This document shows, one piece after another, positions 59,087 through 64,000 of a stretch of 64,000 bases of DNA; the stretch's first letter is position 1, and every line of letters begins with the position of its first letter. The notes beneath the pieces were generated by a model. It saw only the letters and a program-made list of their open reading frames with translations, was not told the origin of the DNA and did not search any database. The stretch covers positions 9,590,001 through 9,654,000 of the forward strand of contig NZ_JASTWJ010000001.1 of the NCBI RefSeq assembly GCF_030499515.1, in the 5' to 3' direction. Made by a program: the position numbers and the translations under genes. The DNA is from Streptomyces sp. DT2A-34 (GTDB lineage Bacteria > Actinomycetota > Actinomycetes > Streptomycetales > Streptomycetaceae).

Positions 59087-59380
59087 TCAGTGACCGATGG
59101 TCCGGTCGAAGTCGGACATGTCCTGGTCGAAGCCGGATGCATCCTGGTCGAAGCCGGGCGTTTCCTGGTCGGAACCGGACGCGCCCTGGCCGGCATCGGA
59201 CGCGCCCTGGCCGAAGCCGGAGTCGTCCTGGTCGAGACCAGGCGTGGCCGGAGAGCTGTTTCCGAAACCAGCTCCGGCGTTACTCATGTCGTCGCTGTCG
59301 TAGGCGAGGGCCTGGCCCGCGCCTCCGAACAGAACGGTCCCGGCCAGAACGGTGGCGGCCAGCAGGGTAGGTGCACGCAC
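59087..59380 (-). CDS. Small secreted acidic repeat protein, 97 aa
   Basis: The GTG at 59380 has GAAGGAG six bases upstream. A signal peptide (about residues 1-26, ending GQALA) precedes an acidic mature part built of degenerate Gly-Phe/Ser-Asp-Gln-Asp/Glu units (PGFDQDASGFDQDMSDFD) that repeat about every 8 residues. No family is recognised. The repeats suggest calcium binding or a flexible surface coat, but this is inference. The 59.38-59.66 kb stretch has no supported gene. Confidence 0.7.
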   Translation of the reverse strand: MRAPTLLAATVLAGTVLFGGAGQALAYDSDDMSNAGAGFGNSSPATPGLDQDDSGFGQGASDAGQGASGSDQETPGFDQDASGFDQDMSDFDRTIGH

Positions 59381-59663
59381 GAGCGTCTCCTTCGGTCGGT
59401 GTGTGCTCGCCAGAGGTATGCCGCCGGCCCGCACGCGAGATGCGTTGATGGGCCCACAGGCACCCGAATAGGCGGTGCACATGGCGGTACCCGCGGTGGG
59501 GGCCCTCGCCGGAGAAATCGAGGCGGGCGTGCCAGGAGAACGACCCGCTCGATGACCCAACAGCGCGGTACGGACGTGAAGTTGGGCACGCCCAGGGTGT
59601 CGCCCAGCAGGTGGCGCTTGATCGAGTTGAGCTCGCCGGGTCGACACCGCACAGCGGCGTACG

Positions 59664-60572: not shown

Positions 60573-60775
60573 CCCGCCAGTATTCGCTCAGGGCGGTGCG
60601 GCCACCTGGTCCAGGGTGGCCCAGCTGGACCCAGGCTCAACTGGGCCAGGTTCGCGGGCCGACCCGCCTTGCGGCGGCGCGAGTCTGGAACAACGCCGTC
60701 CTGTTCTCGCCAGGCCCTCTCCTGCCCGAACGGCATCCCGCTCGCCCGGCAATGTCCTCTGGAGCACCCCGCACC

Positions 60776-61992
60776 ATGCCTTTGATCATCTACGTCCTCG
60801 GATTCGGTACCTTCGCCCAGGGCACCTCGGAGTTCATGCTCTCCGGGCTGCTGTCCTCCCTCGCCGGTGATCTGGGCGTCTCGCTGTCCGAGGCGGGGCT
60901 GTTGGTCTCGGCGTTCGCCGGCGGCATGGTCGTCGGCGCGCCGCTGCTGACGCTGGCCACCCTGAGGCTGCCCCGCCGGGCCGCACTGGTCGGCTTCCAG
61001 GTGGTGTTCGTCGCCGGGCACGCGGCCGCCGCGCTCGTGCCGCACTTCGGCTTCCTGCTGGTCATGCGCGTGGTCACGGGTATGGCGTACGCCGGTTTCT
61101 GGGCGCTTGCCTCGGTCACCGCGGTCTCCCTCGTCCCCGCCGACCGGCGCGGGAAGGCGATGTCCGTGGTCGTGTCCGGGCTGAGCCTGTCCATGATCCT
61201 CGGCGTTCCGGCCGGCACGCTGCTGGCCCAGCACGCCGGCTGGCGGGCGGCGTTCTGGGCGGTGGCCGTCATGTCCGCACTGTCCGCGACCGCGGTGCTT
61301 CTCGCCCTGCCCGGCGGACGCGGCACCGGGGCACCGCAGTTGAGGTCGCGTACCGAACTGGGCTCCTTGGCGGTGCCCCGGCTGTGGGTCGCCTACGCCA
61401 CCACCGCGCTGACCGTCTCCGCCACCATCGCGGTCTTCTCCTACCTGGGCGCCCTGCTGGAGGACGTCACGGGCATCTCCGAGGGGCTCGTGCCGGCGGT
61501 GCTCGGCCTGTACGGCGTGGGCGCGCTGGCCGGCCTCACGGTGGGCGGCCGCATCGCCGACCGGGTCCCGTTCGGGGTCCTGCTGACCGGCATGGGCACG
61601 GTCGCGGCCGTAGCGGCCACCATCGCGCTGACCGCGGACCTCCCCGCGGTGGTGATCCCGCTCGCCGTCCTCCTCGCCGCCGGCGGCTTCATGACCAACC
61701 CGGCGGTGAACGCCCGCGTGTTCGGCATCCTGGGCGAGACCAGGACGCTGGGCGGCGCGGTGAACATCGCCGCCTTCACGTCGGCATCGCCGTGGCTCCC
61801 TGGGTGTCCGGGCTGGTGATCGACGCGGGCCCCGGCCTGGCGGGCATCGGCCGGGTCGGCGCGGCCTTCGCCGTGGCGGCTGTCGCGAGCACGCTGCTGG
61901 ACCGACACCTCACCCGCCGCCACCAGCGCACCGCGCCCACCCCGGCCCCTGCCCGGCGCGACGTCCCTGAGTCGGCCGCGGCCTCCCGGTGA
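60776..61992 (+). pseudogene. MFS multidrug exporter (Cmx-type), frameshifted near its end
   Basis: The first 330 or so residues are an intact 12-helix MFS exporter, with IIYVLGFGTFAQGTSEFMLS at the start and the family motif in MSVVVSGLSLSMILGVPAG. At about 61779 one base is missing: NIAAF should continue NVGIAVAPWVSGLVIDAG, which is present in the next frame to a stop at 61992. The broken frame stops at 61819 and loses the last helices. A single change makes this either a recent mutation or an assembly error. The start at 60776 follows GGAG; ATG 60752 is an alternative. Confidence 0.85.
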
Positions 61993-62094: not shown

Positions 62095-62181
62095 GACCCT
62101 GCTCAGACCCTGCTCAGACCCTGCTCAGACCCTGCTCAGACCCTGCTCAGACCCTGCTCAGACCCTGCTCAGACCCTGCTC
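62095..62181 (+). repeat. 11-bp tandem array, about eight copies
   Basis: GACCCTGCTCA is repeated exactly seven times head to tail from 62095 to 62171, with a nearly complete eighth copy to 62181. It lies between the convergent ends of the MFS gene (61992) and the cysteine desulfurase (62188). The period is close to one helical turn. Confidence 0.97.
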
Positions 62182-62187
62182 CCTTCG

Positions 62188-63471
62188 TCAGGCGCTCTGT
62201 TGCAGTCGGCGCAGCGACGCGACGAGCTGGTCCACCTCGTCGGACGTGTTGTAGAGCGCGAGAGACGCACGCGCCGCCGACTCCAACCCGTAGTGGGCGA
62301 GGGCTGGTTGGGCGCAGTGGTGACCGGCGCGGACGGCGATTCCGTCGCGGTCGAGCCAGTCGGCGACGGAGGCCGGGTCCTGCCCCGCGAGCGTGAAGGT
62401 GAGCACCGCGATCCGGTCGGACGCCGAACCGATCAACTGGAGCCCGGGCACCGTGGCAAGGGCGTCGCGCGCACACGACAGGAGACGCTCCTCGTATGCC
62501 GCGACGGCCTCGCGGTCCAGGGACGTCAGCCAGTTCAGGGCGGCGAGCAGTCCGATGACGCCGGAGATGTGTCCGGTACCGGCCTCCATCTTGTGCGGGG
62601 CGGCCGCGAACGTGGTCCTGCCGAAGTCCACGGACTCGATCATGTTGCCGCCGCCCTGCCACGGTGCCATGCCGGCGAGGAGGTCCGGCTTCGTGTACAG
62701 GACACCGATGCCGGTCGGCGCGAACAGCTTGTGACCGGAGAACGCGTAGAAGTCCGCGTTCAAGTCCTGGACGTCGACGGGGAAATGAGCGACGGCCTGG
62801 GCACCGTCCACCAGGACCTTGGCGCCATAGCGGTGGGCGAGCGCCGTCATCTCCTTGACGGGCGGGACGGTGCCCAGGACGTTCGAGGCGTGGCTGATCG
62901 CGACGAGCCGGGTGCGCGAGGACAGGAGATCCGCGTACGCGTCCTGGTCGATCTCTCCGTCCGCGGTGAGCGGGACCGGCACGAGCCGGGCCCGGGTCTC
63001 CTTGGCGACCATCTGCCACGGCACGATGTCCGAGTGGTGTTCGAGGACCGGCACCAGAATGTCGTCCCCGGGCCCGAGGTTGGCCCGGCCCCAGCTCTGC
63101 GCGACGAGGTTGACGGCCTCCGTGGTGCCGCGCACGAACACGACACCGTCCGGGCTCGGGGCGCCGAGGAAGTCGGCGACGGCCGCCCGGCCCGCCTCGT
63201 ACGCCTCGGTGGCCTCCCGCGCCATGGTGTGGGCCCCGCGGTGGATGTTGGAGTTGGCGGTGCCGTAGTAGGCGGTGAGCGCCTCGATGACCTGGCGCGG
63301 CTTCTGGGTGGTGGCTGCGTTGTCGAGCCAGATGAGGGGGTGGCCGTTGACCGGCCGGTGCAGGATCGGGAAGTCGTGACGCACCGACTCGGCGGTGAAA
63401 CCGCCCGGTCGGCGCCGAAGCGCGGAGGGATCGGTCGGCGTCGGCCACGCCGTGACGTCAGGCGTAGTCAT
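62188..63471 (-). CDS. SufS-type cysteine desulfurase, encapsulin-associated, 427 aa
   Basis: A class V PLP-dependent enzyme that takes sulfur from cysteine, leaving alanine and an enzyme persulfide. The PLP lysine lies in FSGHKLFAPTG (about residue 240), PLP contacts in LEHHSDIVPW and ISHASNVLG, and the persulfide Cys in VRAGHHCAQPALAHYG (about residue 372). The N-terminal extension before the core is short (about 28 residues, Pro/Thr/Arg-rich), unlike the long targeting domain of cyanobacterial encapsulin cargos. The gene overlaps the upstream encapsulin gene by 14 bases, so the pair is coupled. In family 2A encapsulins this enzyme is the packaged cargo. Confidence 0.95.
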   Translation of the reverse strand: MTTPDVTAWPTPTDPSALRRRPGGFTAESVRHDFPILHRPVNGHPLIWLDNAATTQKPRQVIEALTAYYGTANSNIHRGAHTMAREATEAYEAGRAAVADFLGAPSPDGVVFVRGTTEAVNLVAQSWGRANLGPGDDILVPVLEHHSDIVPWQMVAKETRARLVPVPLTADGEIDQDAYADLLSSRTRLVAISHASNVLGTVPPVKEMTALAHRYGAKVLVDGAQAVAHFPVDVQDLNADFYAFSGHKLFAPTGIGVLYTKPDLLAGMAPWQGGGNMIESVDFGRTTFAAAPHKMEAGTGHISGVIGLLAALNWLTSLDREAVAAYEERLLSCARDALATVPGLQLIGSASDRIAVLTFTLAGQDPASVADWLDRDGIAVRAGHHCAQPALAHYGLESAARASLALYNTSDEVDQLVASLRRLQQSA

Positions 63472-64000
63472 GGTACTTGGACACCTCGACGTTCTGGAGT
63501 ACGGCGATGGCGTCGTCCACCAGCACGGCGGTGTTGAAGTAGGCCGTCATCAGGTAGGACGTGATGCCCTTCCGGTCCATGCCCATGTTCCGCATGGACA
63601 GGCCGGGTTCGACCTCGTCCGGCACCGCCGCGGGGCGCAAGCCCACCACGCCCTGCTCGGCCTCGCCGACCCGCATCAGCAGGATCTCGGTGGTACCGGC
63701 GGCCTCGCCCGAGCCGCCCGGACACGGCACCTTGTCGGAGGGCAGCAGCGGCACGCCCCGCCAGGTCAGCAGCGGACTGCCGAACCGGCTGTCCGTCACC
63801 GGCGGCACCCCCCGCCGCGTGCACTCGCGCCCGAACGCGGCGATCGCCCTCGGGTGCGCCACGAAGTAGGCGGGCTGCTTCCACACCCTCGCGAGCAGCT
63901 CGTCCAGGTCGTCGGGGGTGGGAGCGCCGGTGCGCGCCTGCACGCGCTGACCGGCCGGGACACTGTGGAAGAGCCCGAGGTCGGGGTGGTTGAGCATCAG
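63458..64000 (-). CDS. Family 2A encapsulin shell protein (SrpI-like), 5' end outside window
   Basis: About 180 C-terminal residues are visible and the frame is open to the right edge. Conserved family 2A blocks are PAYFVAHPRAIAAFGREC, WRGVPLLPSDKVP, GLSMRNMGMDRKGITSYLMT and NVEVSKYHDYA at the end. These proteins have the HK97 fold and form a nanocompartment shell. The desulfurase gene starts inside its last codons. Whether a serine acetyltransferase or other accessory lies upstream is not visible. Confidence 0.9.
   Translation of the reverse strand: MMLNHPDLGLFHSVPAGQRVQARTGAPTPDDLDELLARVWKQPAYFVAHPRAIAAFGRECTRRGVPPVTDSRFGSPLLTWRGVPLLPSDKVPCPGGSGEAAGTTEILLMRVGEAEQGVVGLRPAAVPDEVEPGLSMRNMGMDRKGITSYLMTAYFNTAVLVDDAIAVLQNVEVSKYHDYA

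Follow-up and report, generated by a model that had tools for sequence, protein, structure and literature searches.

The window, a 64,000-nucleotide stretch of the 10.3 Mb genome of Streptomyces sp. DT2A-34 (G000:C1:9590001-9654000), carries at its right edge the 3' part of a predicted encapsulin shell gene (180 residues of the protein) and, directly downstream, the gene of a SufS-like cysteine desulfurase (Table 1). The 14-base overlap of the two genes that the first-pass annotation had described is exact, the shell frame ending at 63458 and the enzyme ATG standing at 63471. No in-frame ATG, GTG or TTG lies upstream of this ATG, and the enzyme frame stays open for only ~25 codons beyond it, all inside the shell gene, so the enzyme has no longer start. 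Open-frame inspection thereby ruled out the longer in-frame start that had been named as a possible objection, and the ATG at 63471 is the first available.

Table 1. Features of the shell/desulfurase locus (window positions unless a locus is given)
Feature	Position	Strand	Remark
Predicted family 2B encapsulin shell gene, 3' part	63458..64000	-	Extends past the window edge
Whole shell gene	L007:1959-3350	-	463 aa; L007 covers the DNA right of the window
Cysteine desulfurase gene, SufS-like, encapsulin-cargo lineage	62188..63471	-	427 aa, ATG start
14-base shell/enzyme overlap	63458..63471	-	H-D-Y-A-stop / M-T-T-P-D; enzyme start inside the shell's last codons
GAGGTG, ribosome-binding-site-like, putative role	63482..63487	-	Within the shell gene, upstream of the enzyme ATG
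Enzyme front end, 24 residues before conserved F25	63400..63471	-	Stands where an N-terminal tail would be
Shell codon N421, SrpI F262 position	63587..63589	-	Alignment to SrpI
Shell codon Y432, SrpI Y273 position, kept	63554..63556	-	Alignment to SrpI
Enzyme codon K248, in SGHK	62728..62730	-	SufS family pattern
Enzyme codon C386, in RAGHHCAQP	62314..62316	-	SufS family pattern

The convergent exporter reported downstream of the desulfurase is indeed there, as an MFS gene. Its frame (window 60596-61992, plus strand) is apparently split into overlapping ORFs at 60596-61819, which matches MFS_1 over residues 68-394, and 61384-61992, which points to a broken gene or else to an error in sequencing. 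A perfect 11-base tandem repeat (window 62095-62181; 7.9 copies of GACCCTGCTCA) sits where the MFS region and the desulfurase gene converge, between their ends. A small ORF at window 59087-59647 (minus strand) may encode a secreted protein, with a hydrophobic stretch and a repetitive tail rich in D, Q and G. To the right of the window, L007:3657-11889 (minus strand) encodes in a row the large subunit of glutamate synthase, a CysJ-like diflavin reductase and a HemS/ChuX-domain protein, with ~300 bases from HemS to the shell gene. We considered a larger sulfur operon comprising these upstream genes and rejected it: among the other 31 genus loci with enzyme and shell (stretches of 6.5-18 kb), none has GltB or HemS, and only L074 matches CysJ, weakly (34%). 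The three are local neighbours only; they also occur together in G014 (L228, 79-85% identity), which has no copy of this enzyme among its matches.

When 16 shell upstream regions were aligned, the best-conserved sequences were two short blocks, TTGTGA/TTGCGG and GACGATC/CACGATC, which sit ~18 bases apart in L007 and could form a promoter. An Rfam search of L007 1-7000 gave no match, and a sigma-70 and terminator scan returned none.

The shell is a SrpI-like HK97 shell protein (PF19307, 3e-103). The first-pass annotation had placed it in family 2A, a distinction that the part of the shell inside the window does not allow to be judged. The DNA to the right of position 64000 supplies a cNMP-binding domain (PF00027, shell residues 103-190, 6.4e-15), and the family 2B model NF041163 scores 624 bits (cut-off 400), far above the 384.4 bits of the family 2A model NF041162, which barely exceed its cut-off of 380. 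A quick tree restricted to the HK97 part (49 rows: 10 from the clade defined below, 2 near, 8 other 2B, 15 2A and 14 2B without this enzyme) puts the shell on the 2B side with a branch support of 100; this tree separates 14 of the 15 2A shells from 2B and places one 2A row, L093, on the 2B side. Because the 2B profile far outscores the 2A profile, the insert is present and the HK97 tree agrees, the 2A label falls and a family 2A shell was rejected. Among solved structures, 9bhu, 9bje and 9bix come closest in sequence (full-length alignment), followed by SrpI (6x8m). For one 2B insert domain, the relevant section of PMC12407261 reports an inability to bind cyclic nucleotides.

The enzyme scores 523 bits against the SufS model TIGR01979 (cut-off 475). 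Against the family 2 cargo model NF041166 its 633 bits miss the cut-off of 800, since the match spans only positions 220-623 of the 623-position profile. K248 and C386, invariant in 13 aligned relatives, are presumably the PLP lysine and, as we take it from the SufS family pattern, the catalytic cysteine, respectively. Escherichia coli SufS (6ndn, 1jf9) belongs to the same catalytic fold family, enzyme residues 25-424 aligning with 3-402, but it has no shell link and lacks the 22 extra N-terminal residues that follow from the alignment of enzyme residue 25 with residue 3 of the 406-residue chain 6ndn. A quick tree of 67 cores sets 51 shell-linked enzymes (13 of 39 clade, 2 near, all 8 other 2B and 28 of 55 2A) apart from 16 shell-less ones (15 and the organism's own SufS) with an SH-aLRT of 99, and the Streptomyces group lies inside the shell-linked set together with L047 and L043 (98). 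As the core groups with shell-linked enzymes, we regard the enzyme as a member of the cargo lineage and not as a freshly recruited housekeeping SufS. AlphaFold models built from 13-row alignments were poor (pLDDT 53.8 for the shell and 67.2 for the enzyme) and were excluded as evidence of disorder.

We found the enzyme in 33 of 295 genus genomes, this one included, at 66-100% identity, the next matches being at 52-57%; among 394 genomes of the class there are 3 more carriers, all of the same genus, and the close copies L079-L083 (74-81% identity) are all five in Streptomyces. The shell gene lies directly upstream in 32 of the 33 genus loci, the remaining enzyme being at a contig end, and it stands at -1 on the same strand in all 37 neighbourhoods with called genes. 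No third gene is common to more than 10 of these 37, and a conserved accessory gene was not found in them; a conserved acetyltransferase or rhodanese partner was rejected on the same count, these families not being searched by name. On the sequences compared, shell and desulfurase are a two-gene Streptomyces unit.

The pair analysis took in 137 loci (L007 and L041-L176), with a shell upstream in reach in 104 and not in 33. With the duplicate L130 (identical to L045) dropped, these gave comparison sets of 39 clade members, 62 other shell-linked pairs and 2 near ones (L043 and L047). Counted from the end of the shell stop codon, the enzyme starts at -14 in all 39 clade members, our own copy included; for L159 this value is by construction, with a check of frame and ATG. 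The same placement at -14 and the same check were applied to L047, L052, L060 and L061. Since the position is the same in 39 of 39, the overlap is more than chance.

The claim of a short enzyme front end holds, at 24 residues before the conserved F25. Across the 39 members this segment ranges from 8 residues (L074) to 194 (L069); clade front ends were measured to the conserved F, and the other lengths given here were taken to the point where the BLAST match begins, with an accuracy of a few residues. On the tree, short and long states call for 9 changes, or at least 5 when counted by starred branches, against a mean of 11.2 for shuffled labels, so front-end length follows the tree only slightly. 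Front ends of ~80 residues or more occur in all 62 other shell-linked enzymes, and L047, the nearest row outside the clade, has ~124, which makes loss of a tail the simplest reading.

Two targeting motifs, LARLANEFFS and AASPYYFLDG, are described for the CyD cargo in the pertinent section of PMC8049743, and we sought both as patterns modelled on them. The aromatic pattern occurs in 44 of the 62 other shell-linked enzymes (against a mean of 4.8 and a maximum of 11 in 500 shuffles), and in 50 in a broader form, while neither form occurs in any of the 39 clade members; the EFF pattern is found in 14 of the 62 against 0 of 39. Our own enzyme has neither a PYYFL-type nor a LANEFF-type motif. L043 and L047 both contain ARYWL, which fits the strict aromatic pattern and, judged by sequence, may be a motif remnant. 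L043 (in G068) pairs a divergent 2B shell, with P at the SrpI F262 position, with a short-fronted desulfurase (22 residues, 4-base overlap), and G068 also has a long-tailed 2A pair, L044, the two forming natural controls in one cell. The suggestion that the packaging signal is different or very short is supported; the tail and motifs of the SrpI-CyD type are missing.

The other partner has changed as well. In SrpI, weak cargo density is placed at the three-fold axis, near the conserved F262 and Y273, in the portion of PMC8049743 that treats cargo density; in our alignment these residues correspond to N421 and Y432. The F262 position holds F (51), L (8) or Y (3) in all 62 other shells and N (38) or D (1) in all 39 clade members, with A in L047 and P in L043. 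All 39 keep Y at the Y273 position. The F262 position is also F in all 51 distinct same-genus 2B shells without this enzyme among the 76 matches listed, which come from 41 genus genomes (52 loci read, L008 being the same as L177; the five matches in the list that go with this enzyme were deliberately omitted). Of 121 shell columns at least 85% conserved in the others, 11 are switched in the clade; the stretch SrpI 252-283 contains 16 of the 121 and 5 of the 11 (p 0.006; p 0.011 and 0.009 at 80 and 90% thresholds), p-values that are indicative only because the stretch was chosen after the switched columns were known and because 19 columns of the enzyme core are switched too. These core changes show a general divergence of the clade. 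Shells with other cargo or neighbours conserve F262 as well, and 12 of the 62 other enzymes lack the broad aromatic motif yet have F, L or Y at this shell position, so F262 may be structural. The link between enzyme tail and shell residue is thus, from these alignments, suggestive. The enzyme core lies within the encapsulin cargos, so that the two halves of a reported contact have apparently been lost together, and this joint loss of tail motif and shell residue may have been a single evolutionary event.

Known systems share the gene order and differ in these same features. The SrpI-CyD system of Synechococcus elongatus PCC 7942 (family 2A; PDB 6x8m/6x8t; described in the excerpted text of PMC8049743) has a homologous shell (339 bits, HK97 part aligned over 221-462) adjoining a SufS-type desulfurase gene, but SrpI has no cNMP-binding insert and carries F262 where this shell has N421, and its cargo has a 225-residue tail with both motifs. 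Family 2B desulfurase operons, of which the pertinent part of PMC8346489 counts 199, are represented by L084, L104, L086-L088, L091, L095 and L116, in which a 2B shell is followed by a desulfurase of the same lineage; these eight differ in having ~136-334 front residues, L or Y at the F262 position and, in 7 of 8, the aromatic motif. In Streptomyces 2A operons (L041, L042 and L044-L046) the shell is likewise followed by a desulfurase that starts near or inside the shell end, but the cNMP domain is absent, F occupies the F262 position and tails of ~215-300 residues carry both motifs. Other Streptomyces 2B shells, such as L008 and L009 of this genome (46 and 42% identical to this shell) and Sl-Enc1 and Sl-Enc2 of S. 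lydicus (introduced in part of PMC12407261), have the same insert-bearing architecture, with other neighbours; all 51 that were read carry F where SrpI has F262. The genome thus holds three 2B-like shells, and L008 and L009 adjoin ORFs that, read by eye, are polyprenyl synthase-like and terpene cyclase-like.

The sequences themselves show which families the two proteins belong to, that their genes are strictly paired with a fixed overlap, that the tail and its motifs are absent and that one shell residue has been replaced. Since the enzyme lacks a long tail and the shell lacks the residue thought to touch it, loading would have to work otherwise. We infer that the enzyme is located inside the shell and that the SrpI F262 position is the tail docking site in this family. 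The explanation we prefer, and to which we give about an even chance, is that of a two-gene 2B shell/desulfurase unit whose enzyme is still cargo and is loaded through its folded body during coupled translation, not by a tail. Neighbouring synthesis and an altered inner surface of the shell would together replace the long N-terminal tail found in its relatives. A bolder form, in which this is a native cargo that needs no targeting peptide, tail and docking residue having been discarded together, so that overlap-coupled translation would put the enzyme beside its own assembling shell and an altered three-fold inner surface would hold the folded enzyme, we advance as tentative and somewhat doubtful. 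Weighing against any tail-free loading are the long fronts of all 62 other enzymes and the sufficiency of the SrpI-CyD tail, which by itself brings sfGFP into the shell, the first 100 residues being less effective (as reported in one section of PMC8049743).

A base-exact pair in which both halves of the contact have changed fits an enzyme still made for the shell and held in another way. The lost tail motif and docking residue fit equally an enzyme that has gone from the shell and is now cytosolic or on its outer face, the genes staying paired for joint expression; in front-end length some members come close to free SufS (L074, with 8 residues before the conserved F), but pairing in 32 of 33 loci, a base-exact overlap in 39 of 39 and the lack of any other conserved neighbour as replacement cargo in 37 neighbourhoods speak against such a departure, which we consider rather unlikely. 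The first-pass annotation had called the enzyme almost surely the cargo. The coupling on which that view was based is reinforced by the pairing and overlap counts, whereas its certainty is not sustained, given the missing tail and motifs and the replaced F262 residue.

Loading could also depend on a very short N-terminal signal that docks in the shell, the rest of the front end being a spacer of free length. Of the 39 clade members, 37 begin with MT[TI]P[DE] and 2 with MTTAE, 32 have a V, L, F or M as sixth residue, and this start is the only front-end sequence common to the shortest and the longest members. The same codons, however, encode the last residues and the stop of the shell, so conservation of MT[TI]P[DE] alone is no evidence of a signal and need not be the enzyme's own; the sixth residue, which the overlap does not include, varies to A, P, T or S in the other 7, and we judge a signal of this kind distinctly improbable. 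Ordinary drift, with a tail shortened by chance in a redundant system, N421 neutral or structural and loading unaltered, would agree with the clade-wide switches elsewhere (11 of 121 shell columns, only 5 of them in SrpI 252-283, and 19 in the enzyme core). It sits poorly with the hydrophobic residue that all 62 and all 51 other shells have at this position and with the retention of catalytic residues and pairing, and we consider it very unlikely.

Under the preferred explanation, loading through the folded body, the enzyme is expected, by analogy with other family 2 desulfurase systems, to release the sulfur of cysteine within the shell so that it can be stored or passed on in a controlled way; PMC12407261, in the passage concerned, cites desulfurase encapsulins for sulfur storage. 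The titles and abstract openings searched describe no desulfurase cargo without a tail; an earlier notice is possible. Where family 2 shells hold their cargo is a question that cryo-EM density has left unsettled. The clade names single shell positions for it, that of SrpI F262 (N421) and, close by in sequence, V419M, A430T, L436A and S439N, and it offers a natural series for a direct test, in which the enzyme front end runs from 8 to 194 residues within one clade while shell partner and overlap stay constant.
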